DNA from: a virus
DNA length: 39,598 nucleotides
IMG/VR virus record: IMGVR_UViG_3300010885_034387
Coordinates: 1-39,598 of that record
Strand: one strand, 5' to 3'
Part shown: piece after piece, positions 2,828 through 35,155 of the stretch
How positions within the stretch are numbered: position 1 is the first letter of the stretch
Layout: every line of letters starts with the position of its first letter
Position numbers and translations under genes: made by a program
The notes under the pieces: generated by a model
Told to the model about the DNA's origin: nothing
Database searches by the model: none
Seen by the model: the letters and a program-made list of their open reading frames with translations, nothing else

Positions 2828-2872
2828 CCCAAGAAAGATTTGAAACCAGTGCAAGAACACCATGACGCCATC

Positions 2873-2878: not shown

Positions 2879-2884
2879 AGCGCA

Positions 2885-3034: not shown

Positions 3035-3035
3035 T

Positions 3036-3607: not shown

Positions 3608-3845
3608 ACCGCCGCTGAACAACCTTCAGATTGTCCTAAAAACCGTTGGTGCATTGATTCAGCTTGCACCTATTCCTTACGTTGGTTTAGCGTCCGTAAC
3701 GCTTGGCAGTTTAGCCGACCACGAACCCGCTATTGCCGATGCCATTGCCGGGTTCTCCAACGTAAAGCACATTACGATTGGTGAGTTGCTAGCGGCGGAA
3801 AATGAGCTCATCATGCAGGTTGACGTGATGGCGGATACGATTTGA
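3588..3845 (+). CDS. Small hypothetical protein at the end of the left plus-strand operon
   Basis: This is an 85-residue protein overlapping the end of the lipoprotein gene by 20 bases, with AAAGGGGA placed seven to eight bases before its ATG. The middle is moderately hydrophobic (VGALIQLAPIPYVGLASVTLGSLA), which could be one membrane hairpin or an amphipathic region; the C-terminal half is acidic and helical. I do not recognise it. It is the last plus-strand gene before the 3868-3893 terminator. Confidence 0.65.
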   Translation: MSLPTDKPPLNNLQIVLKTVGALIQLAPIPYVGLASVTLGSLADHEPAIADAIAGFSNVKHITIGELLAAENELIMQVDVMADTI

Positions 3846-3862
3846 GGTTAGTATGGCATATG

Positions 3863-3904
3863 ACAAACCCCCGGCCCAGTGATGGGCCGGGGGTCTTTGT
3901 TTTA
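3863..3904. terminator. Strong bidirectional rho-independent terminator
   Basis: A perfect 11-bp stem, CCCCCGGCCCA (3868-3878) with TGGGCCGGGGG (3883-3893), closes a GTGA loop. It is followed on the plus strand by TCTTTGTTTT and preceded by ACAAA, so both directions have a U-rich tail. It sits between the convergent genes ending at 3845 (plus) and 3911 (minus). Confidence 0.9.
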
Positions 3905-3910
3905 ACGGAG

Positions 3911-5251: not shown

Positions 5252-5257
5252 GATATG

Positions 5258-5575
5258 TTACTGCGTTTTTGGTTTACTGACTGGAAAAGTGGGTCCGCCA
5301 CGAATTGTGGTATCTTGGAGCGGTGTATCCAGACTGTTATGCTTCACCGGTTTCTGCGGGACCGTAAAGCTGGCGATGCGTTGAGCCAGTTCAAGTGCCC
5401 CCTGACGTTTGGCGTTCAAGGCGATGGCGGTTCCCCCATCAACGGCACTTCCAAGATCGTGGCAATACTGGGAGAAGACGGCAAAAATGGCTTCTTCGGA
5501 CTGTGCATTCTGAAACGTCGAGGCATACCACTTACGGCGTTCATCGTTGGCGAGGTATAGTGCTTGCGGGGTCAT
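5258..5575 (-). CDS. Small conserved-type virion-operon protein between portal and scaffold
   Basis: This 105-residue soluble protein is helical in its first two thirds (ANDERRKWYASTFQNAQSEE) and has a Pro/Thr-rich C-terminus. The portal stop TAA is directly followed by its ATG, so translation is coupled. Small proteins of this size between portal and scaffold are frequent in podovirus-like genomes, but I cannot assign a function. A role in head assembly is inferred from position only. Confidence 0.7.
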   Translation of the reverse strand: MTPQALYLANDERRKWYASTFQNAQSEEAIFAVFSQYCHDLGSAVDGGTAIALNAKRQGALELAQRIASFTVPQKPVKHNSLDTPLQDTTIRGGPTFPVSKPKTQ

Positions 5576-7906
5576 TTATTCCGGTTTGGTCAGTTGTTGT
5601 GCCTGTTTTGCGCTTCCGCGCTTTATCTCCATGTCGTTAGCGGCCTGTGCCGAATCCAAGGCGACATCGACGTGATGTTCCCGGTTGTCCTGACTGATTT
5701 TCTGAACCTTGGCAGCCGTATCAAGAGCATGTCCCTGTTGGCGATGCTGGAATGTCAGCGCGTGTTCTTGAGCCTGATTCTGAAGCGACAACTGATGCGA
5801 CTGAGCCTTGAACTGCATTTCCTGTTGTGCCTTGGCTGCTTCAATCGCCGCCTTGGGGTCTTGTTGCGGCTGCTGCGCCTTCATGGCCTGTTGCGTGCGC
5901 TGGATGAGTGCCTTTAACTCGTTGTTAATCTGAGCCATCGTGTCCTTGGCAGTCTTGACCCATGCGGAAGAAGACAGGTCGGCGGCTATCATCTGCATTT
6001 CGTGCTGGATGGTTTGGGAAATGAAGGCATAGCCCATGAGTGTTTCCATCGTAGGAAGCTGACCGGCCTGCATGGACTGACCCGTTTTCTGAACCGCTCC
6101 GAACAGCAACGTAATCAACGTTGACGTGTAATCCTTGTGGTCAACGGCAGTGGTGAGTGCCACCGGCTGCTGATCCATAAGGGTGCCCCATGCCATCGTG
6201 GCATACATGACGGACGAAGACGGGGAAACGTCTGCATCGGGAACCAGTTGAAGTGCCAGTCCGGCGTTGTCCGTGTAAGCCGTGGCCGCAAGCTGGTCGA
6301 TGATGCGTTGGGCGGGAGGGGAAAGCCGGGGTTGAAGTCCGCGCAACTCAGAAATCATCGCCATTTCAATGGCTTTGTTGCCGCCACCGACCGTGCGTTG
6401 CGCCTTGATAACCCATGAATCGGGGTCTTTCCAGATAGCCTTGTCAACGCCCTGTTCTTCGCATTTGCGGCGGAACTTTTTGCAGTCAGGATGGTCCAAC
6501 GTGGCAAAACGACGCGCAAGTTCCTGATAGAAAATCTCCATGTCGTCCATGCCGTCCGAAATGGTGTCATTCTGCATCGCATTCCGGTTATTGGCATCGG
6601 CCACGATTTGCGTCGCCGTAGGAGGCTGGCCACCGGCATTCTCGTTGGAATCGGCGATTACCGAAGTCATGTCGGTAATGCTGCGAGTCATGCCACCAAT
6701 GACGGAAAGGATATTCGGCCAGTTCAGGTTAAGCCGTTCCCCCTGTGGAATCACGGTAACGCCATCGGGAATAACCCCGTAGTTGTAGAGGTCAATGTTC
6801 TGAACCCGTTCCTTGTCGCCGGTTCCGTCCACCCGGAAATACATGTTCTGCGACTCCCAAAAGGCGTCCATCATCTTGCACTTGGCGCGGTTCACCAGAT
6901 GACCGATGGCGTAGAGCATCATGCCGGTCGAACGGGCGTTATGCCACCGATACGGAGAAACCGGGTTGTTGTCGATGAACAGAACGTGCATCAACGATTC
7001 CAAGGAATCCGCGTAAGACCGATTTCCAGGATTGAACAAGAAACTGTTCTGATTCGGTCCACCGTCTTTCTGGCTGATACCGATATACGGTTCGTTCACC
7101 CGGTCCAACAGGATGCGTCGAACCCACACTTCCTTGCCTTTGATTTCCTTGCGGAAATAGAAGTCGTAGCAACGGACGCGCGGTGCGGAATCAATGCCAA
7201 TGTAGGCACTGTTTTCCACCACGTCCTGACCCCACTTCTCAGGATACTGCCAGTTCTGAAGCTGCGACGTGTAGGAAACGGAACCAAGCTCCCTTTCCAT
7301 CTTGTCGCAAAGAGCCTGCACCAAAGGCATGTTCCATCCAGGGTCAACAAAGTCTCCGGTGGTCATTCGGCGAAGTTCCGCCAGCGTGAACGTGGTAAAG
7401 ACTGCGAAATAGTCCAAGTTGGACCGGTCGCGTAACGTTAAAGACGGAACCAAGATGTCTTCAACGCCGCGAGTGTGGGGACACCATTCCTGACGTTTGG
7501 TCCACACCGAAGGTCCAGGTCCATGCAGGACGGCACTGCCAACCTTGCTTTTGATTACCTCGGTCAGCTTGTGACTCCGTTTCAGAACCCGGTTAATCTC
7601 GTTGGATATGGTAAGACCCCATTCCATGCGCTTCGCTTGCGGGCCGGTGTCTAGTGACCAATCGAAGTATCGGGGTGGCTTCAGATACGCCTGACGGGTC
7701 TGAAGCTGTGCAGTTGCCAGAGCGCGTCGAGGGTCAAGGAAGTTGACGTTGGTGAAAATCTTGTTGTCTGTCGCCTCGCGTTCCGTGAATGGCGGCGCAC
7801 CAACCATGAGGGCGTTGATGCGTTCACGGTTCTGCGCTCGCGGAATGTCCGCGATTATCATCTGGTAAATTGTGAACCAGATTTCGTCTGCGTTTTTGAA
7901 GCTCAT
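5576..7906 (-). CDS. Portal protein (podovirus type)
   Basis: The 776-residue product has the length and layout of large podoviral portals, which form the dodecameric DNA channel at the capsid vertex. An N-terminal helical region is followed by the clip/stem core with many aromatic and Asn-Pro motifs (for example GVIPDGVTVIPQGERLN and the PPTATQIVADANNR helix, a portal hallmark). The C-terminus, from about residue 650, is a long Gln/Ala-rich helix, like the barrel of P22-type portals. The ATG overlaps the stop of the upstream glycosyltransferase (ATGA at 7903-7906). Assignment rests on pattern, length and neighbourhood with TerL and scaffold. Confidence 0.85.
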   Translation of the reverse strand: MSFKNADEIWFTIYQMIIADIPRAQNRERINALMVGAPPFTEREATDNKIFTNVNFLDPRRALATAQLQTRQAYLKPPRYFDWSLDTGPQAKRMEWGLTISNEINRVLKRSHKLTEVIKSKVGSAVLHGPGPSVWTKRQEWCPHTRGVEDILVPSLTLRDRSNLDYFAVFTTFTLAELRRMTTGDFVDPGWNMPLVQALCDKMERELGSVSYTSQLQNWQYPEKWGQDVVENSAYIGIDSAPRVRCYDFYFRKEIKGKEVWVRRILLDRVNEPYIGISQKDGGPNQNSFLFNPGNRSYADSLESLMHVLFIDNNPVSPYRWHNARSTGMMLYAIGHLVNRAKCKMMDAFWESQNMYFRVDGTGDKERVQNIDLYNYGVIPDGVTVIPQGERLNLNWPNILSVIGGMTRSITDMTSVIADSNENAGGQPPTATQIVADANNRNAMQNDTISDGMDDMEIFYQELARRFATLDHPDCKKFRRKCEEQGVDKAIWKDPDSWVIKAQRTVGGGNKAIEMAMISELRGLQPRLSPPAQRIIDQLAATAYTDNAGLALQLVPDADVSPSSSVMYATMAWGTLMDQQPVALTTAVDHKDYTSTLITLLFGAVQKTGQSMQAGQLPTMETLMGYAFISQTIQHEMQMIAADLSSSAWVKTAKDTMAQINNELKALIQRTQQAMKAQQPQQDPKAAIEAAKAQQEMQFKAQSHQLSLQNQAQEHALTFQHRQQGHALDTAAKVQKISQDNREHHVDVALDSAQAANDMEIKRGSAKQAQQLTKPE

Positions 7907-8814
7907 GGGGTATTATTATCGGTTGGAAGCTTTAGTTGCAATACCGCAGACCATTTACGACGAAACAAGTCAACGCTTAATTCCTGAAGCACTGTCTTGC
8001 GCGCCATAGCTCCCATGCGCCGGTTAAAGTCTTGGTCGTTCACAAGACGGCTTACATACTCGCGCATTTCCTCAAGGGAATCCGTTGCCCGGTTCCGGGT
8101 GATGAAACAGTTCCATCCAGAGAACAGAAATCTTGGAAGATCAAGCGAGGCTCCGAACACCACGGGAACGCCCTGAGCCATTAGTTCCAGTGGCGACATG
8201 CCGCATGAATCACCATTCACGATGTTGATAGCCGCCGACAGGGAACCGGTTTCATCCAACATCCCATCCAATCCACAGGGAGAAGAAAGCTTGCCCATGA
8301 ACAGCGTGTTGCCATGCCCGATACCAACCGAGTCGTGCCCCCACAGGACTCCATTTGCGATGATTGCCTGTTCGCCGTTAAGTCCGTTGTGAACGAACCC
8401 GACTTTCTTTGGAAGGTCGTATCGGCGTTCTGGAAACATGGCTTCATCGAAACAGAACCATATCCAATGGACCTTCGGGTTGAAGCAAAGTTCCCGGTGC
8501 GTCCACAGCTTGTGTTCCGAGACCGATACGAACGCATCAACGTTGTCGATCACATGCTGGCCACCGGTTTCCGAATGGGAATACTCGTTGTGGTCGATGA
8601 ACACCTTGCGCTTTGCCGACACGTCCAACGGGGTCAAATCCCAATGGTCGGTAATCAGCACGTCATAATCACCGGACCACGGTTCCCATTTGGCGTTCTC
8701 TGGCAAAGGTCTGAAGATTTCATCCCAAGCATCGACGGTAAAACTCAGTTCAGGAAACGCCCGCATGAACATGTAGGCGTAAGGGGTATGACGGCCTGAC
8801 CATGCAATTCTCAT
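7903..8814 (-). CDS. Glycosyltransferase, GT-B fold, GT4-like
   Basis: The 303-residue protein (start ATG 8814, sharing one base with the upstream TGA) shows the GT4-type donor-site pattern near its C-terminus: CGMSPLELMAQGVPVVFG, where Glu and the small residues contact the nucleotide sugar. A Rossmann-like N-terminus (MRIAWSGRHTPY) and an FIDHNEYSHSE stretch precede it. GT4 enzymes transfer sugar from NDP-sugars with retention. It is the fifth gene of the coupled sugar-modifying cassette between GroES-like and portal genes. Donor and acceptor cannot be read from sequence; candidate acceptors are virion proteins or host envelope glycans. Confidence 0.8.
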   Translation of the reverse strand: MRIAWSGRHTPYAYMFMRAFPELSFTVDAWDEIFRPLPENAKWEPWSGDYDVLITDHWDLTPLDVSAKRKVFIDHNEYSHSETGGQHVIDNVDAFVSVSEHKLWTHRELCFNPKVHWIWFCFDEAMFPERRYDLPKKVGFVHNGLNGEQAIIANGVLWGHDSVGIGHGNTLFMGKLSSPCGLDGMLDETGSLSAAINIVNGDSCGMSPLELMAQGVPVVFGASLDLPRFLFSGWNCFITRNRATDSLEEMREYVSRLVNDQDFNRRMGAMARKTVLQELSVDLFRRKWSAVLQLKLPTDNNTP

Positions 8815-9563
8815 CAGTTGTAACCTCTTTCCGAAAGCCATTGTTTGGCAATGTTGGGATGGTCGCCCGTAAACTTTTTGCATTCCGACAAAGGGATATG
8901 CTGTTCAAACCCTTTTCGCTTGTCTTCCAGCATCGTGTCCAAAGCCGGGTCATAATTGCTACCCGTGAACGCCAGGTGCATCGGCTTCGCCTTGGCCACA
9001 TACTCCTTGGTGCGACGAATGAAGCCGTAATGAAATATCTGCGGACGATCCAGAAGAACCGGACGTTCGGCCAAGATGGATTCGGCGTCACCGACGTAAG
9101 CGGCATCTATGGGGCCGCAGCGTATAACCTGGTCATTGCAGACCCGTCCGCGAGGAACCAGATGCCGGTGGTCAATCCAGAAGTTCAACCGATAAAGGGC
9201 GCAAGGGGCTTCCTCAATGTAGTTACGCAACCATTTTGGGTCAACCGCCTCCAATACTTCGTCCGCCTGAATTCCAATGTGATGCGTGCAACCGGACGCC
9301 TTCAACGCCTCACGCGACATGTTGGAAAGGTCGGACAACCAAGAACCCCACCCGCCTGGGTTGGGACGCCAAGGGGCAGACAGGACGCGAAGCTTGGTAA
9401 ACTCCACCGCCAGTTCCATGAGGATGCTTCGGGTTCCGTCATCGGATTCCGCATCCACGATTACCACCTCGTCACAGACGGGAAGCAGTGAACGAAGTGC
9501 AATTTCAACGCAGTAGTCAAATTCGACTGCGTTATGGATTATCATGGAGCCGCCGAGTTTCAT
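8814..9563 (-). CDS. Glycosyltransferase family 2-like protein
   Basis: The 249-residue protein starts at ATG 9563, overlapping the upstream stop as ATGA. It has the GT-A pattern: a VVIVDAESDDGT segment (nucleotide-binding Asp), then IQADEVL, where the QAD takes the DXD position, and later HYGFIRR, typical of the WaaE/KdtX-like branch of GT2. These enzymes act in the cytoplasm on lipid- or protein-linked acceptors. It sits fourth in the cassette. The acceptor is unknown. Longer start choices (to 9599) would run into the upstream gene and are not needed. Confidence 0.8.
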   Translation of the reverse strand: MKLGGSMIIHNAVEFDYCVEIALRSLLPVCDEVVIVDAESDDGTRSILMELAVEFTKLRVLSAPWRPNPGGWGSWLSDLSNMSREALKASGCTHHIGIQADEVLEAVDPKWLRNYIEEAPCALYRLNFWIDHRHLVPRGRVCNDQVIRCGPIDAAYVGDAESILAERPVLLDRPQIFHYGFIRRTKEYVAKAKPMHLAFTGSNYDPALDTMLEDKRKGFEQHIPLSECKKFTGDHPNIAKQWLSERGYN

Positions 9564-10171
9564 TTTTGTAATACGAAAATACCGACACCGTTCCACCACC
9601 CGGAAGCGTCACCATCGGGGCACGGCTGTTCGTGCGACCGGAGAATCTTCAACCCACTGGCAGCTATTCCACGCCTTGCACTTTCTTGAACCTGTGGCCA
9701 GTTCCAATCATCCACGATGTAGATAAATTGGTCCGACATTTTGGAGGCATAGACCGTCAATGCCTTCTCCTGCGATTCAACCGAATGGCAGCCGTCGTAG
9801 AAATACAGGTCCACTTTGCCATCGGGTATCTGTGCGATGGTTTCGGGCAACCAACAGTCGCCAAAGATTAGTTTCGCTTGCGGAGCAAACTTGGTGACAT
9901 TTCCGGTCAGTGTCTCGCGGTTTCCATCGAACTCGCTGAAGTTCTCAATGGCGTAGGCTTCAATATCGTTGCCGTAACAAGTGGAAGTGAGCGATGCGCC
10001 GTGAAGTGAACCAATCTCAAGGTAGCATTCGCAAACTGAACCAAAGTTGTTCATCAGGTGACGGAACCGGTCTCCGCAGAAGCCTCCAACTGCACCCATG
10101 ACTTCCGGGGTGAGTTCGGACTTTCTGCCGCCGTGCGCCGCCACCATGTCAAAAACAGCAACCATATTCAT
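9560..10171 (-). CDS. Class I SAM-dependent methyltransferase (Methyltransf_24-like)
   Basis: The 203-residue protein starts at ATG 10171, overlapping the previous TGA (10168-10171). Motif I is CYLEIGSLHGAS (SAM-binding glycine loop), followed by acidic residues at the end of strand 2 and FGDCW, then VDLYFYDGCHSVES, in which the YDGCHS acidic/His motif is typical of the Methyltransf_24 group that often modifies sugars. It neighbours glycosyltransferases, so O-methylation of a transferred sugar is the likeliest role, by inference. The genuine start removes 42 non-conserved upstream residues. Confidence 0.8.
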   Translation of the reverse strand: MNMVAVFDMVAAHGGRKSELTPEVMGAVGGFCGDRFRHLMNNFGSVCECYLEIGSLHGASLTSTCYGNDIEAYAIENFSEFDGNRETLTGNVTKFAPQAKLIFGDCWLPETIAQIPDGKVDLYFYDGCHSVESQEKALTVYASKMSDQFIYIVDDWNWPQVQESARRGIAASGLKILRSHEQPCPDGDASGWWNGVGIFVLQK

Positions 10172-10719
10172 ACTTTTACCCTCGCATTCTTGGACAGTTT
10201 TTCGACCGTCATGTTTTCTTTGCCGATGTCTTTCCACGCCCAAAATGCGCCGTGGGTTTCGCCGCTGGGAAACAGATGATATTTCGGCCACGTCCATGTT
10301 TCGTATCCCATCGCCTCAAACATGTCCGGGGTCCAGCCCGAATGATGCCCGTCTGGACCCGAATCGTTGTTCATCCACAGTTCTCCGATGGGAGTAAACA
10401 CAACAATCCGTTCCGAAATCGACTCCAGTTCCTTCAACAGCTTCAGGGCCGGTTGCTGGTAAAGATGCTCCACGGAATCCAGCATATATGCCACGCCAAA
10501 CTTCCGGCCTTCGTAAACCTTTGGAACATCCAAGATGTCCATTTCCACTAAGTTATCTGGCGGATTGGTATGACGAATGAGGTCAACAAACGTAATCTGC
10601 GGAAGAAGCCGGGTATGGCTTGCATTGCAACATCCAAGGTCAATGCCGGGTGACTTGTAAAGCTCCCATACAATTCGGGAAGACTCCTTGGGGTCTCCAA
10701 CCCTGTCAGTGATGGTCAT
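10168..10719 (-). CDS. SAM-dependent methyltransferase (Methyltransf_11-like)
   Basis: The 183-residue protein starts at ATG 10719 in an ATGA overlap with the GT9-GT2 gene. It has IDLGCCNASHT as motif I and a hydrophobic-Asp segment (VEMDILDVP) as motif II/III. VAYMLDSVEHLYQQP follows, matching the DvlEHl signature of class I methyltransferases. It ends with an aromatic-rich strand (GAFWAWKDI). It shares the operon with the second methyltransferase and three glycosyltransferase genes, suggesting decoration of a glycan. The substrate is unknown. Confidence 0.8.
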   Translation of the reverse strand: MTITDRVGDPKESSRIVWELYKSPGIDLGCCNASHTRLLPQITFVDLIRHTNPPDNLVEMDILDVPKVYEGRKFGVAYMLDSVEHLYQQPALKLLKELESISERIVVFTPIGELWMNNDSGPDGHHSGWTPDMFEAMGYETWTWPKYHLFPSGETHGAFWAWKDIGKENMTVEKLSKNARVKV

Positions 10720-12941
10720 CGTAGTGGTTTTGTTTCCGTCAGGTAAGTCCCCCAACGTTTCGCGAACAACGCTTCACCTTCCTGAAGCAGCTTCATTTTC
10801 ATTGGGGATGTGGTTTGGGATTCGTCATGTATCCCGGTCGCTTTCGGTTCGTAAATCAGTTTCCACCCGGCCTTTTTCAAACGAATGCAAAGATCGGCAT
10901 CTTCGGAATAGCAGTCGTATCGTTCGTCAAAACCTCCAACCTGATAGAATGCCTTTCGGCGAACGATGGCGGCGGCAAAGTTGATGAACTCCATTTCAGT
11001 TGGTTCAGTGAACCGGTTGTCCTGAATGTGTCCGAAGTTCGTGGCTCCGTGTGGCCGGTGACTTCCCGCGAAATAAAGCTTCCCGTTGGGATACCGGGTC
11101 TTGCAACCGACCACTGCAACAGACGGGTCAACAAAATGCTTCAACATCTCAGAAACGGAACCGGGGTCCATGTAGCAGTCGTCATTCAGGAAGAACAGGA
11201 ATTCACCCATGCTATGACGGGCCATCCGGTTGCACGTCTTGCCGAATCCGTTTCGTTTCTTGGATATGTTGGGAACCGGGTGGCCATATTGACGATAGGG
11301 TTCCGGTGATGCGTCCCCGTCCAGACCGATCAACAGTTCGTATTCGATCTGGCCCATCGACTTATCCAGCGTCTTGGCCAACCGCTCCATTCTTGGAAGT
11401 CCCGTCATTGTTGGGACTAGTGCGGAAACTCCATGCGGAAACACCTTCATCCGCATGACTCTGGCCATTTCATTTACATCCAGCCGTTGGCAGGGCGGCT
11501 TTTCCTTGTCGAATTTCTGACAGGTGTAGGTGGAACAATACAGGCAATCAACCGGTGCCTTGACCGCCAAGAAATCGGAACCGTCCGTAACCCGCAACTC
11601 ACTTCGGAACGGTCCTTCAATGACGCCTATCGGCTTCCTGAACGCAGCAGCGACATGAAGAAGACCGGTATCAACACCCACGAACGCATCGCATTCGTTG
11701 ATTAACGCCATGACCCTTCGGAAACCGTTCACGTTCAGATTGCGAACGGGATGCGGCAATGGCCACGGTCCAAGGCTTATGAAGGTTGCTTCCGGCATGG
11801 TCTCCGCAACCTTGCGCCAGTCTTCGGTGTGCGTTTGACGATTCTTCCATGACCCGGAGGCGGCAGCGATTCCGATAATGGGACGCTTCAAACCGATCAA
11901 CGCATTGAACGCTTCCTTCTTCTCTTCCTCGGTCAGAAACAGTTGGGGAACCCGTTGGTGTTGCAAGCCATGACCGTTCTTGCGATGCAACAACGTCTGA
12001 ATGCTGGTCGTGGGGAAATCAGGCGACCGTTCATAAGCCCAATCCAGTTCAATGGTTGGAACATTAGGCGCAGGCGTGTTTGATGCGATGGACGGATGCC
12101 CCTTTAGAACCACGCCTTCCACTTCACCGGCCATGAAATGAACATCGTAACCATGTTCACACAGAGCGTCGGCAATGGTCGTAGATTGAATCACATCACC
12201 GAATGCGCCGCCGCGATGAACGTTGATCTTGGGGCGAACTGAAGTTGGCTTGCTATCCCCCTTTTGCCAACACCATGTCGGACGACCATCCATTGCCGGG
12301 ACGTTTGGAACCCACACTTTCAACGGCAGATGACACCCGCAAAGCTCGCATGTTTTAAGTCCAGGTTCTCCCGGAACCACCAGTTTGATTTCCTTTCGGA
12401 AGGAAGTCTGCGCCAAAATCTCTTCGGCGATGGCCGTTTCAATGTGGCCACCCGGTTGATTGTGCGGGCACGTGTTTCCACCATTGCCGCGAAGACAGGC
12501 GCGTGCGCGTTCGTCGGCTACCGACTGGTCAACGGGAACCGCGCCATCACCAATCCATCGGCCAAGGATAGCCAGCCCGCGCGCATCGTTTTTGAAGCGA
12601 TTCCAAAAACGCTCAACGACACCCGGTTGAACATCTTTTGAATCCTTTGGGGAGTAAGTCTGGTGAGTCGGTGAGTTTTTTTTTGAGTCTTCGTCAAACG
12701 CCTCGCACCAGTTCACATGGTAGTTGAGACGGGCGGCGGTGAAGTTGTGAAGTGCCTGTTCACAGTCGGCCAGATTCGGACTCAGGTTCAGCCGTGGATT
12801 CTGGCGGCGAAAGTTGGCGATGTTGACAATCTGATCCCGGAAACCTGTGCCCAATGGAGCCGGTGCGTTCCAGCCTTCTTCCGAATACATCCAGCCACCG
12901 GGCGGAAATACACCGTAACAGTTTTTGATTCGGAAGTTCAT
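10716..12941 (-). CDS. Three-part protein: zinc-ribbon-like N-domain + GT9 heptosyltransferase-like + GT2 glycosyltransferase
   Basis: 741 residues. Residues 1-230 carry a Cys-rich region (C149, C158, then TCELCGCHLPLK at 197-208 and WCW at 223-225) that may bind zinc. Residues 238-495 match GT9: RGGAFGDVIQS (243-253), the IGIAAASGSWKNR base-binding segment, and CDAFVGVDTGLLHVAAA (417-433). A Cys cluster (C466, C469, C474, C484) follows, as in ADP-heptose transferases. Residues 505-741 are a GT2 domain with FLNDDCY (585-590, metal-binding DXD position) and FINFAAAIVRRKAF...SEDADLCIRLKKAGW (acceptor/catalytic region with ED at 680-681). Fusion of the two folds in one phage protein is unusual. 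The ATG is six bases after the GroES-like stop. Confidence 0.85.
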   Translation of the reverse strand: MNFRIKNCYGVFPPGGWMYSEEGWNAPAPLGTGFRDQIVNIANFRRQNPRLNLSPNLADCEQALHNFTAARLNYHVNWCEAFDEDSKKNSPTHQTYSPKDSKDVQPGVVERFWNRFKNDARGLAILGRWIGDGAVPVDQSVADERARACLRGNGGNTCPHNQPGGHIETAIAEEILAQTSFRKEIKLVVPGEPGLKTCELCGCHLPLKVWVPNVPAMDGRPTWCWQKGDSKPTSVRPKINVHRGGAFGDVIQSTTIADALCEHGYDVHFMAGEVEGVVLKGHPSIASNTPAPNVPTIELDWAYERSPDFPTTSIQTLLHRKNGHGLQHQRVPQLFLTEEEKKEAFNALIGLKRPIIGIAAASGSWKNRQTHTEDWRKVAETMPEATFISLGPWPLPHPVRNLNVNGFRRVMALINECDAFVGVDTGLLHVAAAFRKPIGVIEGPFRSELRVTDGSDFLAVKAPVDCLYCSTYTCQKFDKEKPPCQRLDVNEMARVMRMKVFPHGVSALVPTMTGLPRMERLAKTLDKSMGQIEYELLIGLDGDASPEPYRQYGHPVPNISKKRNGFGKTCNRMARHSMGEFLFFLNDDCYMDPGSVSEMLKHFVDPSVAVVGCKTRYPNGKLYFAGSHRPHGATNFGHIQDNRFTEPTEMEFINFAAAIVRRKAFYQVGGFDERYDCYSEDADLCIRLKKAGWKLIYEPKATGIHDESQTTSPMKMKLLQEGEALFAKRWGTYLTETKPLR

Positions 12942-26063: not shown

Positions 26064-26318
26064 TCACACGATGGCTAAAGTTGACTCCGGCCATGAGGCG
26101 AGGATGGCGTCACGGATTACGTTGCACTCAAATCGTATGGCCGCATCGGCAATGGAGATTCCCGGCTCGCCAAGTAAGCCATACATTTTCTGTAACCCCT
26201 CAATCGCCGCGATGGTGGACTTCCAGCCCGCTTCGGCGTATATAAGCCTACCTTCGCATATATCAATGCGCTCTTGGCACTTGGCCTTGATCTTTTCGAG
26301 GTGTTCGGTGGTGGTCAT
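26064..26318 (-). CDS. Small hypothetical protein downstream of the DfrB-like gene
   Basis: 84 residues from ATG 26318; the longer frame to 26441 only covers antisense of the DfrB-like gene. It starts MTTTEHLEKI, strikingly like the [10 protein letters not shown] start of the upstream DfrB-like protein, and is otherwise helical (AAIEGLQKMYGLLGEPGISI). It lies seven bases after the DfrB-like stop and so is probably cotranscribed. No family recognised. Confidence 0.65.
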   Translation of the reverse strand: MTTTEHLEKIKAKCQERIDICEGRLIYAEAGWKSTIAAIEGLQKMYGLLGEPGISIADAAIRFECNVIRDAILASWPESTLAIV

Positions 26319-26325
26319 ATGGTCT

Positions 26326-26535
26326 TTACTTAACAATCTCCAACGCCTTCGCCGGATAGATTTGAACGCTGCCTTTGTGTGTGGACGATTCGACACACAC
26401 GCCATTAGGAGTGAGGCTTGTGGAGTAGTAACCACACACAAAGCCCTCCCACTGTGAGCCGGACTTTTTCCTTACGCGCGTGCCGATGTCGAAGGTGTGG
26501 GTGCTAAGTTGATGGAGGGGTTCGGTGGTGGTCAT
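26326..26535 (-). CDS. dfrB: R67/DfrB-type (type II) dihydrofolate reductase homologue
   Basis: 69 residues. From residue 14 on it lines up without gaps with plasmid R67 [31 protein letters not shown], then the active-site block [12 protein letters not shown]. By eye about 33 of 56 positions are identical. The R67 catalytic surface (Lys in RKKSG and Gln-Ile-Tyr of VQIY) is kept, as is the SH3-like barrel core. R67 acts as a homotetramer reducing dihydrofolate with NADPH and is insensitive to trimethoprim. In a phage it could raise folate for thymidylate synthesis. It sits in the early operon between two small unknown genes, with an A-rich leader and no Shine-Dalgarno site. The N-terminal 13 residues differ, as they do among DfrB variants. 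Confidence 0.88.
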
Positions 26536-26542
26536 TGTTTGT

Positions 26543-26953
26543 TCATTTCTTTAGAAGTTGTATAAGATGTTCAATGTCTTGGTGATTATACTGAAGGTCT
26601 CCTAGGCAGTAATTCAGAGCATCATCCACCACCTGCCGAAGCTTCTCGTTCTCGGCGCGTAGTTCAACGGCTTGGTTAGCTCGAAACTGTTCGTAGGATT
26701 CGATGATTTCCGATGAGCAGTGATAGTGTCCTTCCGCGTAAGCCTTCTCCAATTCCTCTGCGGGCACTAGTCGGCACCAGAGACCTTTAATCTCTGATGG
26801 TTCTTCGTATGATAGTTCGTCAACCACCCCTTTGAACGTGCATTTCTTTAGGACGATAAGGCGTCTTCCGCGCACGTCTTCGTCGCTTATGTCTTCTCGC
26901 GCTTTCCAGGCGTAGAACCCAGTAGTGGTCGGTGGTGTTGATGTAAAGGTCAT
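26543..26953 (-). CDS. Hypothetical early protein with C-terminal helix
   Basis: 136 residues from ATG 26953, behind the A-rich leader AAGAAACAAAAAC. The N-terminal part is a small beta-type domain ([29 protein letters not shown]), similar in style to phage proteins that begin with a PGFYWW-type strand. The C-terminal part is helical ([20 protein letters not shown]) with leucine-zipper-like spacing, suggesting self-association. Seven bases separate it from the DfrB-like gene. Function unknown. Confidence 0.65.
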
Positions 26954-26990
26954 GTTTTTGTTTCTTGAGTTCTTCAGAAATAGAATTTCA

Positions 26991-27281
26991 TCACAACCGA
27001 CAGTCTTTTTGCCGAGTCACGTCGCATATTCTTATGTTAGGACGACAGCATCCATCGCATCCATGAATCGTCAGATGTTCACGACCGATTCGGACATTGT
27101 GCGCGGCGTCGTCCGGGTCGGGATGGCCGACACCGTGCGGGCAGATTCGCTCCATCACGCCCTTATCGTCGCGCCAGTTCAGCGGCCACGTCCTCATGTG
27201 GTGGTCGGACGGGTTGTGGATGCAGCAGTGTTCGCCGCTGCATTGCGATTCGTCGTGTGTTCTGAGTGTTACGTTTTGCAT
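26991..27281 (-). CDS. Cys/His-rich protein, probable metal-binding
   Basis: 96 residues with an unusually dense Cys/His set: CSGEHCCIHNPSDHHM, then ERICPHGVGHPDPDD and HGCDGCCR and CDV near the end. The first two blocks together look like a small zinc-binding module; I recall similar CCIHNPS...HGxGHPDPDD proteins in phages and actinobacteria, with no known function. It lies in the early operon after the exonuclease. Acidic/His clusters would also allow a nuclease role, but this is not shown. Confidence 0.7.
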   Translation of the reverse strand: MQNVTLRTHDESQCSGEHCCIHNPSDHHMRTWPLNWRDDKGVMERICPHGVGHPDPDDAAHNVRIGREHLTIHGCDGCCRPNIRICDVTRQKDCRL

Positions 27282-27345
27282 AAAAAGCCCTAACCATACG
27301 CTTCAGCGAACCCGGCCACTTCGCTCTTATTGCAATTTGCGTCAC

Positions 27346-27648
27346 TCATGGTCTGGTCGCTGATGAGCTTGCTTTCGGCAAAATCACGCGGACGGGTTGC
27401 CCAATGCGTAAGCCAGCAGGCGAAACATTCAACTTTACCATGATCCAGCCTTCGCGAATGTCGCCGCCGTCGAGTTCTCCCGGAACGCCAGCGAGTTGTT
27501 CGGAGACGCTCACGATTTCCGCAAGTTCCGATTCCAAAAGCGTCAGTCCATGCTCGCGGCTCATGAGTTCAAAAAGAGGGTAAAAGAAAGACGACGGACA
27601 CGAACCAGACGCCACAGAACAACGCTCTGGATTTGCAATAGTTTTCAT
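27346..27648 (-). CDS. Small hypothetical protein after the exonuclease gene
   Basis: 100 residues from ATG 27648. Only this part of a longer open frame looks coding; the upstream 139 codons are antisense-type sequence shared with the exonuclease gene. The protein is Ser/Cys-containing at the start (CSVASGSCPSSFFYPLFELM), then amphipathic helix (LLESELAEIVSVSEQLAG) and beta-rich sequence (EGWIMVKLNVSPAGLRIG). No family recognised. Confidence 0.55.
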   Translation of the reverse strand: MKTIANPERCSVASGSCPSSFFYPLFELMSREHGLTLLESELAEIVSVSEQLAGVPGELDGGDIREGWIMVKLNVSPAGLRIGQPVRVILPKASSSATRP

Positions 27649-27679
27649 AGTCAAAGTGGTTCTACGATGAGGATGTGCG

Positions 27680-28537
27680 TTAGGACACCCACTTCGGCAC
27701 CGTGCATACAACCTCAGTCGCGGGCGAACCAGGCCAGATGTTTTCGCGCGAGCACTTGGCAAAGACTGGCAGAAGTTGACAAACTTCCTCCCAACCTTTC
27801 GCAATGAATTCGTCTGAGCACGCGAACACCTTAACGTCATGCGGAGGTTTCGATTCCACGGAGAAGAATTTGAAACCCCGCTTACGATCTTCCGACCCAC
27901 AGAGCGCATTCCACACAAACAGATATAGCGCAGCTTGGATGTGATAGCCCATGTCGTAGGCGTGACGCGGAAACTGGTGGTCGTCCACTGAGTTAGTAAA
28001 TTTGCAATCGGCCAAGAAATCAAACCGTTGCGACGGGATGATGTCCATGCGGCAACGAACACCAACGTCGTTGGTCTGGTCCCAAGTTAGAAGCGACAGT
28101 TCTGTTTTGCAGTCCCGCAGAACCGGGCCGGTAATCGGATGGTCCGACAACGCCTTGGCCGCGTTCACGGCGTTGTCGAAGTCAGTGGATGATAGCACTT
28201 GGAAACCCTGATCCTTCTTCATTTGCTCCCATGTCTTGCAAACCTTTGACGCTCCGTGCCACGGCTTCTGATTTCCGTTATCGTCCGTGTAGGTTTCCGG
28301 TTTCTTGATAATCATCGGCGGTTCCGCCAACGGTTCCAGTGCGTAGTGATGCGCCAGTGTGCCCGCTATCATCGCAGGTGACGGTTCCTCGCGCTTGTCC
28401 AGATACAGCCGCAAATGAGCGGGAGTGCCTTGCCACAGCGTCCGAAGTATTGACGCGGATGCACCCGGCAAAGCGTGATATTGCTCCGCTGGCATTCCTT
28501 CGTGGACGCCGATAAGGGTTTTGAAGTCGGTGGTCAT
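27680..28537 (-). CDS. PD-(D/E)XK exonuclease, RecE/phage exonuclease-like
   Basis: 285 residues. A Ser/Ala-rich start motif (LPGASASILRTLWQGTPAHL) and GTLAHHYALEP are characteristic of the RecE-like putative exodeoxyribonuclease 8/PDDEXK group. The catalytic set reads E146, D165 in RMDI, D177-C-K179 in FLADCKF, and QAALY (201-205) as the QxxxY motif. Such enzymes degrade one strand of double-stranded DNA to give single strands for the partner annealing protein. It lies in the same operon as RecT, separated by one 64-residue gene, and its ATG overlaps that gene's stop (ATGA at 28534-28537). Confidence 0.85.
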   Translation of the reverse strand: MTTDFKTLIGVHEGMPAEQYHALPGASASILRTLWQGTPAHLRLYLDKREEPSPAMIAGTLAHHYALEPLAEPPMIIKKPETYTDDNGNQKPWHGASKVCKTWEQMKKDQGFQVLSSTDFDNAVNAAKALSDHPITGPVLRDCKTELSLLTWDQTNDVGVRCRMDIIPSQRFDFLADCKFTNSVDDHQFPRHAYDMGYHIQAALYLFVWNALCGSEDRKRGFKFFSVESKPPHDVKVFACSDEFIAKGWEEVCQLLPVFAKCSRENIWPGSPATEVVCTVPKWVS

Positions 28538-28732: not shown

Positions 28733-29752
28733 TTATCCCCTTATCGACTTCACCGCGTTTTCCCAATCGCCAATCATGGCCTCAAGCGAATGGCTGGAAA
28801 TGGACGCAATTTCGTCGATGGTTTTCGCGTTCGCCGTGGATTCAGGTCCGCCAACCGTTCGCCACCAACCGAGGAACGTTTCAACCTGAATCGGTGGCTT
28901 GGCCGATGCCAAAAGCCGAATCACGGTCTTGGTAATGTCCGTGTCAGGTTTTGATTTCGTTGCCGATGCAGTTGCAGTTGCCATAGTCACCGGAGCGGCC
29001 TGAAACGACGGTGCATCTGTTACCGGCCCGTCGCCCGTCTCCATTTCGATTACCGCGCCGTTATCAACCATCGTGGTATGCCCGATTTCCGCCGCATCAG
29101 CCGCAACAATGGCGTTGTTCAACTCAATGCTGCGCGGCATATACTTGAGAACCTGGAGCAACACCACCTTGCGGGCATACATCTCAAAGTTGGCATACGA
29201 ATAGTGCCGTTGCCCGACCTTGTTGTAGCGGTCCCGGTGTTTAATCACGCGCGACACGGGCCACGCTTCGATGACTTCTTGTTCCGAACCGTTGACCTTG
29301 CCGCAGGCATAAACCCACGTCAAAGAATCGGGGTCGCCATAGTTCGGTCCCGGCAGATGACGGCACTTCGGACGGCTGCCCAACTCAAATTCCCACACGT
29401 CGCCTTCAAACACCGCCCCGGTCCATGCCGTCGCGCGTCCCGTGTTGTTCAGAAGTCCGACCAACCCCTGCCAGCCCGGAACCATCGTGCAGGTTCCTTT
29501 GTATGGAATTAGATAGCACTGACCCGCTACACCTAGCTCAAGGCCAATCTGCGCGGCGACGACCAGCGATGAAAGAATGCTTTGCGGAGTGCATTTCTTG
29601 AGTTCCGCGTTGGTGCTGTAACACGTTTGCGCCAGCCGGATCATGCGGTCGGCCTTCAGGTGCGAAGGGAGGGCGTTGACGATTGCCGTCCGTGATTTGC
29701 CTAGGTAATCCCCAAGCTGTTTTGCGTTTGATACTGTCAGTTCGTTGCTCAT
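28733..29752 (-). CDS. recT: RecT-family single-strand annealing protein
   Basis: 339 residues. The core matches RecT: LAQTCYSTNAELKKCTPQS, SLVVAAQIGLELGVAGQCYL, IPYKGTCTMVPGWQGLVGLL, and GDVWEFELG; the SpqSll/GLelg and Q-G-Y/W-r-Gli-Lm blocks are diagnostic. RecT binds single-stranded DNA and anneals complementary strands in phage recombination. The C-terminal ~90 residues are Thr/Ala-rich then helical, as usual for a variable tail. It is followed by a small gene and the exonuclease. The start is preceded by AACTTCAAAAC, an A-rich leader. Confidence 0.92.
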   Translation of the reverse strand: MSNELTVSNAKQLGDYLGKSRTAIVNALPSHLKADRMIRLAQTCYSTNAELKKCTPQSILSSLVVAAQIGLELGVAGQCYLIPYKGTCTMVPGWQGLVGLLNNTGRATAWTGAVFEGDVWEFELGSRPKCRHLPGPNYGDPDSLTWVYACGKVNGSEQEVIEAWPVSRVIKHRDRYNKVGQRHYSYANFEMYARKVVLLQVLKYMPRSIELNNAIVAADAAEIGHTTMVDNGAVIEMETGDGPVTDAPSFQAAPVTMATATASATKSKPDTDITKTVIRLLASAKPPIQVETFLGWWRTVGGPESTANAKTIDEIASISSHSLEAMIGDWENAVKSIRG

Positions 29753-30624: not shown

Positions 30625-31446
30625 TTAGTTAGTAGGAACATCAGGGTTGGTATCGTGCTGAATCATCATCTTGATTAAGTGCGCCGCGATTTGCGGGACG
30701 ATGGCGTTGCCGATTGCACCGATTCTGACCAGCCTGCCGGATATCCCATCAACTGTTCGGTGAACATTGGGGAAAGAAAGCCGCCAGGTTTCCGAATCCA
30801 CGGATGATTTGATAGCATCACTTGCATCACACCTTTCGGACTTCCAGCGGCATCCTCGTTCTTGCAAGGAGTGGGCAACCACCCACACCCGATGTCGTCT
30901 GTGATAAGCTCCGATTCCTGAAGCTGGAATATCAAACGCCCCGCAGGAGTAGCCGACGCCTTCCAAGTCAGATAACACCGTGTCGAGTTCCATACCTATG
31001 ATCCCAGGCACGTTTTCGCCAAGAAATAATCTCGGTTGTAATGCTTCAACAATTCTAAGCACTTGAGGCCAGAGCGCACGGTCATCATGCCTGCCTCTTT
31101 GCTTCCCGGCGACACTGAAAGGCTGGCATGGCCATCCAGCGGTAATGAGGTATGGTCTTTCCCTGTCGAGTTCCCATCCCATTGGCGTGATGCACGGGCA
31201 TTCACCGAGGTGCGCTTGGTGCCTTTCGCACCACCGATCATCACAGCATTCGCATTGTGGATATTCTCCAATATCAACGGCAATGTTTCGGACATCTCCA
31301 AAGTTTTCGATTTCCGGCCAATGTTTTTTGAGGATGGTGTTTGCATATTCGTCAGTCTCACAGAATCCAATTGTCTTTAACCCGTTCCACTCTGCCGCCA
31401 GCTTGAAGCCACCAATTCCACTGAACAGGTCAAGATGGGTTTTCAT
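30625..31446 (-). CDS. DNA (cytosine-5) methyltransferase
   Basis: 273 residues with the C5-methyltransferase motifs in order: motif I LFSGIGGF (7-14), motif IV GWPCQPFS (104-111, catalytic Cys 107), motif VI ENV (144-146), motif VIII RHRVW (184-188) and motif X GNAIVPQIA (246-254). It methylates cytosine in DNA using SAM, probably to evade host restriction. Between motifs III and IV is a Cys/His insert, CECCDDRWCERH...CPC (65-85), that could bind zinc. The target-recognition region is short. No cognate nuclease is nearby, so it is an orphan. ATG overlaps the preceding stop (31443-31446). Confidence 0.9.
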   Translation of the reverse strand: MKTHLDLFSGIGGFKLAAEWNGLKTIGFCETDEYANTILKKHWPEIENFGDVRNIAVDIGEYPQCECCDDRWCERHQAHLGECPCITPMGWELDRERPYLITAGWPCQPFSVAGKQRGRHDDRALWPQVLRIVEALQPRLFLGENVPGIIGMELDTVLSDLEGVGYSCGAFDIPASGIGAYHRRHRVWVVAHSLQERGCRWKSERCDASDAIKSSVDSETWRLSFPNVHRTVDGISGRLVRIGAIGNAIVPQIAAHLIKMMIQHDTNPDVPTN

Positions 31447-31795: not shown

Positions 31796-32058
31796 CGTTT
31801 GCCCTCCGTCAGCCACACCAGGCGATAGAAAACCGCAAGGATGGCCGCACTAAGGCCAACGGTGGCGCATTTAGGAAACCAGCGGATCACCAGCACAAGG
31901 ACGATGGCGATGATTACCGCCATGCCGACCATACCGGACCAGACAACCACCTTGCCTTGCCAGCGCATCGGCAACGGGTCGAAGTTAATGCCGGGGTCGT
32001 CGGGGTGTTTATCCATGCCAACGGATGCGCCTAATGGTGTTTTATTCACGGGTGTCAT
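31792..32058 (-). CDS. Two-span membrane protein
   Basis: 88 residues from ATG 32058 (a TTG at 32079 is less likely). A charged N-terminus is followed by two hydrophobic segments: VVVWSGMVGMAVIIAIVLVLVI, then VGLSAAILAVFYRLVWL after a short loop (RWFPKC). A membrane role such as exclusion is possible. The start lies 17 bases inside the end of the epimerase gene, behind TTAACACAAAACAAC, an A-rich leader. Confidence 0.65.
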   Translation of the reverse strand: MTPVNKTPLGASVGMDKHPDDPGINFDPLPMRWQGKVVVWSGMVGMAVIIAIVLVLVIRWFPKCATVGLSAAILAVFYRLVWLTEGKR

Positions 32059-33214
32059 GTTGTTTTGTGTTAATAGCAATTTGTGCCTGTGCGATGCGTA
32101 AAGATTCGTATTCGTCGAAGGATGTTGGAGACGTGTCTTTGCCGTTTATGGTTGGCACATGCTGGCCTGTTTTCCGGTCGTGTCGCACTCCCGGAATTTT
32201 AGAACAAGGCGACGCACACGAACCACTGCCCGCCGCGTTCAACGCGCAGATGAGTTTGCTTTCCGGCTGCCAGTTTCGCAACGAGTCTTCGAGCGCCTCG
32301 TCCATCGGGCGGATATTCACGCCGGTGGCGAGCAGCTTGGCGGTGTCGAGGATGCAGTTGGAGCGCGGGGTCTTCGCGGCGACGCGGTAAAACTCCGCGT
32401 CGTCGGCCCAGAACTCGAACTTTCGAGACGGCTTCAGCACGCGCTGGATCGCGGCGACGACTTCGCGCGTCGAAACGTAGCCGGGGTTCACCACGTTGTA
32501 GATGCCCGTGGGCGCGCGGCGCTCCCAGAGGTCGAGGCAGGCACGCACGAAGTCCGTGCGGTGTGAGATCGAGTTCACGTTGTCGTAAACCTTGGCGTAG
32601 CGCTGGACCTTGCTGATGTAGTTGCGCGCGTTGTCCACCTCGTCAAACGGGATGCGCAGTCGCCAGAGGTAGCCGTCGAGGCCGCGCAACGCCTCTTCGC
32701 CGAGCGCCTTGGTGCCGCTGTAAAAACTGCACGCGCCCTGACGGAAGGAGAAGTTCGGCTCGTCGGTCTCGGTGAAGCCGCGGATCGCAGACCGGTCGCC
32801 ATCCATCAGCGCGCGGAAGGACGGCGTGGTGAGATCGGGTTCGATGCGGATGCCGCTACTCTCGACGACCTTCGCCCCCTTGTAGATGCAGCCGGACGAG
32901 ACGTGCCCCCACGCGACACCCGCCGCGTGACATGCGTGGGCGACGGTCTGCGGCAGCAGCGAGTTGCCGACCAGCGTTTCGGACGGGGCGGATTCACAGG
33001 CGTCCACATTGGGTTTGCCGGTGTATCCGGCGCAGTTGATTACGAAGTCCCAGCGAGCTTCGCGCAGCACCGCGAGCAGCCGGTCGAAGCGTGTGTAGTC
33101 CACGTCGGCGCGACGCAGCACCCGCGAGTCCCAGCCGCGCCGCGACAGTTCGCGCGCGAACGCATCGCCCACATAGCCCGTGCCGCCGAGCAGCAAAACT
33201 TTGGGCACCCTCAC
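32042..33214 (-). CDS. NAD(P)-dependent sugar-nucleotide epimerase/reductase (RmlD-like), with C-terminal extension
   Basis: 390 residues from GTG 33214, with GGAGGT (33220-33225) upstream and GTGA overlap with the preceding gene. N-terminal LLLGGTGYVGDAF (7-19) is the Rossmann NAD(P) motif; HVSSGCIY (104-111) and Y165-SGT-K169 give the Ser-Tyr-Lys set of short-chain dehydrogenases. A sugar-binding C-domain follows. It probably reduces or epimerises a nucleotide sugar. The gene is clearly GC-richer (runs of gcgcg) than its neighbours over about 32264-33210, pointing to recent transfer. Residues from about 318 to 390 (nt 32042-32263) switch back to phage-like composition and look like an added tail, including SGSCASPCSKIPG and RKTGQHVPTINGK. 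Confidence 0.85.
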   Translation of the reverse strand: MRVPKVLLLGGTGYVGDAFARELSRRGWDSRVLRRADVDYTRFDRLLAVLREARWDFVINCAGYTGKPNVDACESAPSETLVGNSLLPQTVAHACHAAGVAWGHVSSGCIYKGAKVVESSGIRIEPDLTTPSFRALMDGDRSAIRGFTETDEPNFSFRQGACSFYSGTKALGEEALRGLDGYLWRLRIPFDEVDNARNYISKVQRYAKVYDNVNSISHRTDFVRACLDLWERRAPTGIYNVVNPGYVSTREVVAAIQRVLKPSRKFEFWADDAEFYRVAAKTPRSNCILDTAKLLATGVNIRPMDEALEDSLRNWQPESKLICALNAAGSGSCASPCSKIPGVRHDRKTGQHVPTINGKDTSPTSFDEYESLRIAQAQIAINTKQHDTRE

Positions 33215-33668: not shown

Positions 33669-34051
33669 TTGTCCCCCTTTCCGCAACGGGCAAGGACGGC
33701 ACGGGCGGAAACCATAGCCAAAGCCCATTTCTTTCCTGAGGCAGAAAAGCTTGCGTCGCGCAAATAAACCATTTGCTCCAACGCCGCCCGCAACTCGTCC
33801 CGCTCGCGTAGAAGGTCAGGAGCGGCGGCGAACAAGAGCGCGTTAGCAGGATGAACGTCCCGCATGGTGCAAAGGATTGACCCCTCTTCCATCGACCAAT
33901 CTTCCGGCATGCTGCCGCCGTGATCCACCTTTGAGCCAGCGGTGACAATGTAGCGGTGATCGTGCTGGACGTGCCTGCCTGCATTCACGGGACAGGGCAT
34001 TATTTCAAGCTCCTTGAATGCGGCGAAAAAGTTTTTCGTGTCGGTGTTCAC
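33665..34051 (-). CDS. Hypothetical early protein with phage ANALLFAAAPDLL motif
   Basis: 128 residues from GTG 34051, supported by the strong site AAGGAGGT five bases upstream. The HPANALLFAAAPDLLRERDEL stretch matches a motif common in small phage early proteins (ANAxLIAAAPxLL), followed by an amphipathic helix. The same motif is present in the gene at 36509. The first half has MPEDWSMEEGSILCTM. Function unknown, widespread in phages. Confidence 0.7.
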   Translation of the reverse strand: MNTDTKNFFAAFKELEIMPCPVNAGRHVQHDHRYIVTAGSKVDHGGSMPEDWSMEEGSILCTMRDVHPANALLFAAAPDLLRERDELRAALEQMVYLRDASFSASGKKWALAMVSARAVLARCGKGDK

Positions 34052-34797
34052 TTCTCACCTCCTTCCTCAAGCTTCGCGCATCGACGGATGTCTTGCATCA
34101 CCGTTTTGTTGTCCTCAAAAAACCGGCACGGCGAAACCGGAATTTCAGGTGATGACAGGTGATAAATTTTCATTGCGGCAAACAGGGTTGAAGTTTCCGA
34201 TTCCAGTTTTTTGCCCGCTTCTCCCGCCAGATGGACAACCCAGCCCGCGCGACAGTGAGTGGTTTCGCAAGTGTGCCATGTAGACATGTCTAGTGAGTTT
34301 TCGACGATGGTAGCCGACAAAATAGCGGCGTGTATTTTTGGGATTCTAGGAACGGTGAATGATTTTGATTGACCCCAGCAATCCGAGCAATCCGAGCAAC
34401 GCGAGCAACGCGAGCAACGCGAGCAACCCGAGCAACGCGAGCAACCCGAGCAATCCGAGCAACGCGAGCAACCCCAGCAATCCGAGCAATCCGAGCAACC
34501 CCAGCAATCCGAGCAATCCGAGCAACGCGAGCAACCCGAGCAATCCGAGCAACCCCAGCAATCCGAGCAACCCGAGCAACGCGAGCAATCCGAGCAATCC
34601 GAGCAACGCGAGCAAACCCAGCAATCCGAGCAATCCGAGCAACGCGAGCAACCCCAGCAATCCCAGCAACGCAAATTGTTTTCATTTTGCTTCTCAAAAT
34701 CAGAATGGTTTTGCGCGAATTTCCGAGAAACGCCGTTACAATCTTTGTCTTTGCGCGCGTCAAAGGCGGCGCGATCCTTAAATATCAGTGTTTTCAT
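34048..34797 (-). CDS. Cys-x-x repeat protein with phage C-terminal domain
   Basis: 249 residues from ATG 34797, four bases after the preceding stop; a longer frame to 35019 is antisense-type sequence. Residues 1-43 are charged. Then 33 uninterrupted triplets of the form Cys-Ser/Trp-x follow (CSD, CSR, CSG, CWG), every third residue being Cys. The C-terminal ~100 residues contain MSTWHTCETTHCRAGWVVHL, a block I recall from phage proteins with similar repeats. The repeat could form a regular metal-binding or disulfide-stapled helix; function is unknown. The array is coded by 9-bp repeats, so length can vary without frameshift. Its TGA overlaps the GTG of the next gene. Confidence 0.75.
   Translation of the reverse strand: MKTLIFKDRAAFDARKDKDCNGVSRKFAQNHSDFEKQNENNLRCWDCWGCSRCSDCSDCWVCSRCSDCSDCSRCSGCSDCWGCSDCSGCSRCSDCSDCWGCSDCSDCWGCSRCSDCSGCSRCSGCSRCSRCSRCSDCSDCWGQSKSFTVPRIPKIHAAILSATIVENSLDMSTWHTCETTHCRAGWVVHLAGEAGKKLESETSTLFAAMKIYHLSSPEIPVSPCRFFEDNKTVMQDIRRCAKLEEGGEK
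34057..34064 (-). promoter_or_regulatory. Strong Shine-Dalgarno AAGGAGGT before GTG 34051
   Basis: Minus-strand AAGGAGGT (34064-34057), then GAGAA, then GTG. It lies inside the end of the Cys-repeat gene and fixes the GTG as the start of the overlapping gene. Confidence 0.6.
34374..34675. repeat. 9-bp direct repeat array (about 33 units)
   Basis: Units of the type cccgagcaa/tccgagcaa/gcgagcaac repeat about 33 times with small changes at two positions. They code for the Cys-x-x triplets on the minus strand. No frame contains a stop across the array, so several long spurious frames appear on both strands. The in-frame unit permits slippage. Confidence 0.95.
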
Positions 34798-34801
34798 GTT
34801 A

Positions 34802-35155
34802 TCAAAAAGAGTGATCCCGCGCTTCGTCAATCTGTGCCTTGAGGTCGTCAATCTGTTTCTGGATTCCGTCGCCTGCGTCCGCGTCGGATGATTCTTCCGC
34901 GTCCGTGTTTTCCTCCTGGTCCTTTTCCAGCGTGGCAAGCTCCGTTTCAAGCTCCGCAACGAATTCTTCCCGCGCTTCCTCAACGTCTTGCCTGTTGTAA
35001 GTCTCGCCGTCAACCTCAACGAAGTCCTCGCCGTCCGCCCAGTCGTTCACCCCGCAACGGTAGGCGGTAGGGTCTTCGGATTTAAGCACCGACGACGGCG
35101 ACATATAAGCAAACGGACCGCCAACGGATGAGAACGAATAGCATTCGTCAAGCAT
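34802..35155 (-). CDS. Acidic early protein, phage-type, LDECY...AYRCG...DW
   Basis: 117 residues from ATG 35155 (TTG 35167 would add four). The first half has MLDECYSFSSVGG, VLKSEDPTAYRCGVNDWAD, a conserved phage-type segment; the second half is a strongly acidic helix (AELETELATLEKDQEENTDA) with coiled-coil character. Function unknown. Directly upstream in frame is a TAG at 35168-35170 that closes a separate short frame. Confidence 0.65.
   Translation of the reverse strand: MLDECYSFSSVGGPFAYMSPSSVLKSEDPTAYRCGVNDWADGEDFVEVDGETYNRQDVEEAREEFVAELETELATLEKDQEENTDAEESSDADAGDGIQKQIDDLKAQIDEARDHSF

Follow-up and report, generated by a model that had tools for sequence, protein, structure and literature searches.

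A DfrB homologue in a variable slot of a phage early operon

The window, by which we mean the whole 39,598-nt stretch of viral DNA analysed here (IMG/VR record IMGVR_UViG_3300010885_034387), carries a dfrB-like gene of 69 aa on its minus strand (26326..26535), with an ATG at 26535 and a stop codon ending at 26326. A preliminary description had the coordinates and length right; strand is the sole correction, the plus strand of this interval being interrupted by an internal stop. R67 is a trimethoprim-proof folate enzyme of hospital plasmids, and DfrB ranks among the simplest enzymes known and is an effective determinant of trimethoprim resistance. The claim that the R67 core is preserved holds: 34 of 56 aligned residues are identical to R67 without gaps (33 had been counted by eye), and the motifs GSVQIYP and RVRKKSG are present, keeping both the VQIY active-site motif and K32. 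Searching the R67 family profile gives a clear match (Pfam PF06442 DHFR_2, residues 11-68, 79.9 bits where the cut-off is 25, E=1.3e-22), PDB entry 1vie of R67 matches at the sequence level (E=1.6e-18), and profile, PDB and structure matches together place an SH3-like DfrB domain at residues 14-68. Against the NCBIfam model for resistance DfrBs (NF000331, DfrB1-21) the protein scores 89.1 bits, under the cut-off of 137. The gene is a genuine DfrB/R67-type homologue, located in a phage early operon and outside any integron.

This early operon is tight and codirectional, with a 7-nt gap between dfrB and each neighbour and with exonuclease and RecT genes upstream. On inspection, neither an integrase gene nor an attC site was seen near dfrB. 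The gene directly upstream (26543..26953, minus, 136 aa) ends 7 nt ahead of the dfrB start and matches no significant family, and our search confirmed no relatives of it. Downstream lies a gene of 84 aa, counted from a repeat described below (26064..26318, minus). Further upstream are the exonuclease (27680..28537, minus; PHROG exonuclease VIII, E=2.3e-57), a RecT-like annealing protein (28733..29752, minus) and, about 4 kb from dfrB, a DNA methyltransferase (30625..31446, minus).

Two IMG/VR contigs, L231 and L232, are near relatives of the window, with aligned stretches 81-100% identical in nucleotides. Both lack dfrB, which is therefore accessory and occupies an early slot of variable content. 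The slot spans 1.57 kb (26112..27686, minus) and in L231 and L232 holds instead about 555 bp with small ORFs unrelated to those of the window. Its right border is the exonuclease, kept in both relatives together with the RecT-like protein (97% aa identity); its other border falls inside the downstream 84-aa gene, because the 3' end of that gene is common to L231. The closest known relative, L001, has only dfrB in common with the window (84% nucleotide identity over 165 nt). No close DNA relatives of the window were found among GenBank phages, and a search for tRNA genes returned none.

A repeat search identified a 21-nt direct repeat, one copy of which forms the dfrB start (26515..26535, minus, ATGACCACCACCGAACCCCTC) and the other, identical at 20 of 21 positions, the start of the next gene (26298..26318, minus). 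Together they bracket dfrB in a unit of 217 nt, and the 20-nt pattern occurs twice against an expectation of 0.01. We infer that recombination between these repeats could gain or lose dfrB.

Elsewhere in the window, glycosyltransferase-like and methyltransferase-like ORFs lie amid structural genes (7903-12941, minus; Pfam GT2 and GT9 match a 741-aa ORF), and an RmlD-like epimerase is encoded at 32042-33214. Together, the cluster and the epimerase suggest sugar-related functions. A further minus-strand ORF (34048-35019) contains a long Cys-Ser-Asp/Gly/Arg repeat run (CSDCSGCSRC...) that is open in other frames too.

Predicted fold and conserved pore

The AlphaFold model of the monomer has five strands in an SH3-like barrel (mean pLDDT 87.9), and Foldseek gives just seven matches at E<0.001, each of them an R67 entry (rmsd 0.6-0.8 Å, TM to target 0.94-0.96). 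Conservation within the family is concentrated at the R67 pore-lining positions, which we take to be 32, 36, 46, 51 and 64-69: mean entropy across 77 phage rows is 0.21 at these positions versus 1.44 at the rest (permutation p=4e-4). K32, W38, Y46, T51, V66 and Q67 are invariant in these rows, and the R67 ligand-binding residues K32, Q67 and Y69 are retained across almost the whole family. Position 62 is mostly E or H in the phage rows (H62 in the window), and position 45 mostly F, T or Y. On the tetramer pore, raised as a check in the preliminary description, we find the known pore, ligand-binding and tetramer residues of R67 retained save W45; at the subunit interface W38 is kept and W45 is replaced by Y. 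W45 is stated to be replaceable without significant loss (PMC9835603).

Compared with R67 DHFR/DfrB1 (PF06442; PDB 1vie, 2rk1), the window protein is thus of similar small size and fold, and it retains K32, W38, Y46, T51, S65 and V66-Q67-I68-Y69. It differs in having Y for W45, S for A36 and a shorter N-terminal tail, and in its setting, R67 belonging to integrons whereas the window gene is a candidate reductase, by homology, in a phage operon. Pairwise dN/dS values (0.10 for the window versus L001; median 0.26 over phage pairs) indicate purifying selection on the protein. Conservation of the pore is consistent with ligand binding and is no proof of catalysis; the pore residues could also serve assembly or the binding of another ligand.

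Phage DfrB diversity and the source of integron genes

Phages hold a large pool of DfrB domains, in keeping with the proposal of the preliminary description that they are a natural reservoir of this fold. Relatives confirmed in IMG/VR numbered 131 in one scan and 216 in another, the two sets overlapping, and matches were found in 26 GenBank phage records and 98 plasmid records, with 50 loci in one genome scan. Phage-borne DfrB is already known and not new. DfrB-H4 of a Vibrio phage gave trimethoprim resistance in E. coli, and DfrB-H3 of a Pseudomonas phage gave none on expression, for which poor expression was blamed (PMC9835603). Both resemble the window protein in being encoded by phages and in having VQIY, K32 and W38 in the DfrB domain; unlike this stand-alone 69-aa protein, they are multi-domain, and DfrB-H4 is a more distant homologue. 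Phage-borne dfrB-like genes 50-76% identical to DfrB, from freshwater and wastewater viromes and lytic phages, are also listed in the available text of PMC7265639, PMC10580818 and PMC12466917, where they appear as putative resistance genes only and with no 7-deazaguanine link.

The architecture of viral homologues varies widely. Among 122 viral loci left after dropping identical copies, the part N-terminal to the domain is at most 40 aa in 55 and exceeds 120 aa in 52 (~43%). The long homologues are mosaic proteins, often in the style of Ea22, and one is fused to DUF551, a module in lambda Ea22 variants (PMC10834534). In L005, L010-L019, L052, L175 and roughly 50 other viral loci like them, the DfrB domain is the C-terminal module of a mosaic protein of 200-490 aa with a coiled-coil-like start. 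Neighbour clustering and Pfam/PHROG tallies revealed no operon partner conserved across all dfrB clades, the commonest neighbours being HNH endonucleases (3-4 of 139). The 139 phage dfrB neighbours also include one match to anti-CBASS protein Acb1 (E=8.8e-33) and two to Lar restriction alleviation proteins.

In a tree of the family (129 rows, 56 columns), the window protein groups with L001 among viral rows, and integron DfrBs cluster with bacterial genes. All class 1 integron DfrBs compared (DfrB1-4, 6, 10 and a DfrB9-like protein) fall in one 22-row clade (support 90, not starred) that excludes the window protein and also holds genes from bacterial assemblies, mostly betaproteobacterial. This clade sits among phage sequences, but an alignment of 56 columns is too short to establish the deep direction. 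In amino acids, integron DfrBs are 94-100% identical to bacterial genomic proteins and at most 78% identical to any phage protein, leaving the idea of phages as the direct ancestor unsupported. Given the identity to bacterial genomes, clinical dfrB seems to come most immediately from bacteria, with phages as a wider and more diverse pool.

The genomic settings of the bacterial genes are mixed. Some are in fact integrons or resistance plasmids: L097, L100 and L118 match plasmid integrons over long flanks, and L133 is of plasmid origin. By contrast, L093, L094, L098, L107, L111 and L114 are large contigs or environmental MAGs in which only a short dfrB unit is common. This unit measures about 285-400 bp among environmental bacterial genomes, its neighbours are ordinary chromosomal genes, and there are no phage families among the 25 neighbour families listed for the bacterial clade.

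Two other plasmid settings stand apart. The DfrB of Pseudomonas aeruginosa plasmid p1160-VIM (L228, 1486-1689) groups with phage rows, is 80% identical to that of phage L173 and is closer to phage than to the chromosomal DfrBs compared. It adjoins IS110-type transposases on a clinical carbapenemase plasmid, a possible second recruitment of DfrB judging from its sequence affinity. A separate rhizobial and sphingomonad lineage (L134-L141 and L229, a plasmid of Rhizobium sp. K1/93) is marked by AAKKGRASWRG..., and its L229 member, which lies beside a recombinase and a Tn3-family transposase, represents a mobile form not tied to integrons.

The diversity of phage DfrBs also bears on whether the window gene is a trimethoprim-resistance gene recently acquired from a resistance plasmid or integron, a reading to which we give almost no weight: identity to R67 at 34 of 56 residues is what it has in its favour, and it is contradicted by the tree and by identities (core at most 65% identical to the integron DfrBs compared; nearest relative the phage gene L001, at 90% aa identity over the core). 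The lack of resistance genes nearby, a phage family far more diverse than the integron clade and the synthetic nature of trimethoprim also count against it.

Linkage to 7-deazaguanine genes in freshwater phages

A neighbour tally revealed a PTPS/QueD gene beside one freshwater dfrB. QueD occurs in 20 of 50 dfrB-bearing viral records, all within a freshwater clade marked by 'SGSQWHG' (~24 of the 50), and in 0 of the 26 others. Among 30 distinct loci of this clade, a count that excludes five mosaic or WKG members, 28 have a FolE, QueD, QueE or TGT-like gene in the dfrB flank, and L058 and L079 show no linkage in the available flank. In 23 of the 30, dfrB directly abuts such a gene: QueD upstream in 10, FolE upstream in 5, a TGT-like gene upstream in 5 and QueE downstream in 6, with 3 loci abutted on both sides. 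In the freshwater lineage, dfrB is nearly always seen next to 7-deazaguanine genes. The linkage is tight on long contigs also, QueD lying within ~2.8 kb of dfrB in 8 of 8 contigs of at least 60 kb that carry both. In L061 (cluster at 2116-6013, dfrB at 4992-5171) the dfrB reading frame shares 4 nt with queD and 16 nt with queE. L045, L061, L063, L074, L076 and related IMG/VR loci carry dfrB inside a folE-queD-queE-TGT/DpdA-like cluster with varying neighbours. The three upstream partners suggest at least three independent placements of dfrB, a count that is uncertain because the loci are related.

Assignments of the partner genes differ in strength. FolE scores above its NCBIfam cut-off; QueD and QueE have PHROG and NCBIfam matches, with NCBIfam scores under the cut-off. 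The TGT-like protein has no HMM or PDB sequence match and was identified by its GDSGGFQ motif and a fold search, all ten matches at E<0.001 being tRNA-guanine transglycosylases. QueC was found next to dfrB in 0 of 50 records. QueF was rejected as a partner: its matches, in 14 of 48 records, are weak and sub-cut-off, and those that were placed fall on FolE because the two proteins have a common fold.

The reverse association is loose. In 43 long loci picked for a close QueD, FolE and QueE are each present in 36 and dfrB in 2, both times directly after queD; dfrB is therefore optional to the pathway. In 23 further phages with QueD, whose records of up to 364 kb were searched in full, no dfrB was located elsewhere. 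The window contains no FolE, QueD, QueE or TGT-like gene, so the linkage concerns the family and not the window gene directly.

Phage 7-deazaguanine clusters with FolE, QueD, QueE, QueC and DpdA have been described (PMC6884629), and the freshwater dfrB clade lies within such clusters; it differs in that QueC and QueF were not found near dfrB, and the window phage lacks the pathway genes. DHFR goes unmentioned in that paper, and our search of openly accessible journal articles turned up none that connects DfrB to 7-deazaguanine or queuosine. The origin and native function of DfrB are stated to be unknown (PMC9835603, PMC9774602), and the freshwater linkage apparently gives the family its first functional context.

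Proposed function

We propose, with a probability of roughly 55%, that the window gene is an accessory early DfrB/R67-type gene for pterin or folate reduction, with trimethoprim resistance as a by-product. By analogy with R67, four 69-aa SH3-like subunits would assemble around one central pore, and we consider a DfrB-type tetramer very probable. The pore would bind NADPH and a dihydropterin such as dihydrofolate, with hydride transfer by proximity and poor binding of trimethoprim; the purified protein is likely to reduce dihydrofolate, at least weakly. The phage would retain dfrB for use early in infection.

As to the native substrate, R67 reduces a dihydropterin ring and FolE and QueD make pterins, which renders a pterin reductase the most economical reading of the linkage. 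A pterin of the FolE-QueD-QueE-TGT/DpdA-like pathway, as suggested by one freshwater lineage, could be the substrate; DfrB may, for instance, hold the tetrahydropterin substrate of QueE in its reduced form. We offer pterin reduction as the native role only tentatively, as a hypothesis, since the window lacks 7-deazaguanine genes and the cluster usually lacks dfrB. A bolder version, which we think unlikely, is that DfrB arose in phages as an accessory pterin reductase serving the 7-deazaguanine modification of DNA, where it might keep 6-carboxytetrahydropterin, the product of QueD, in reduced form for QueE. R67 resistance would then be its by-product, and stand-alone copies such as that of the window would descend from it and act on host pterins or in another modification pathway.

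The main rival to a pterin reductase is a role in binding only. The DfrB domain would be a portable SH3-like tetramer whose pore holds a nucleotide-like ligand or a protein, in countering host defence or tuning lysogeny for example, and DHFR activity would be adventitious, as has been suggested (PMC9835603). The long N-terminal extensions in ~43% of distinct viral homologues, often Ea22-style mosaics, and the fusion to DUF551 argue for such a module, as do the variable early slot and the single, mobile and partnerless occurrence of dfrB outside the freshwater clade. Retention of K32, Q67 and Y69 over almost the whole family and the abutment of freshwater dfrB on pterin-pathway genes argue against it, and we regard it as possible but somewhat doubtful.

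A classic DHFR making tetrahydrofolate for phage thymidylate or nucleotide synthesis, like that of T4, appears improbable. The family's DHFR activity is established (PMC9835603) and the early-operon location would suit this role; against it, the bacterial host has a DHFR of its own, and a thymidylate partner fails as a general explanation, with ThyA in 3 of 50 dfrB-bearing viral records (15-59 kb from dfrB; 0 of 30 in a RecT-selected background) and ThyX and FolA in 0 of 50 each.

Implications

The window adds one clean stand-alone phage DfrB to the family, and its near relatives mark the gene as an exchangeable accessory. The search for the source of clinical dfrB cassettes should turn to environmental betaproteobacteria, phages being a more remote pool. 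The repeated tight linkage with genes leading from pterins to 7-deazaguanine makes the native function of DfrB testable.
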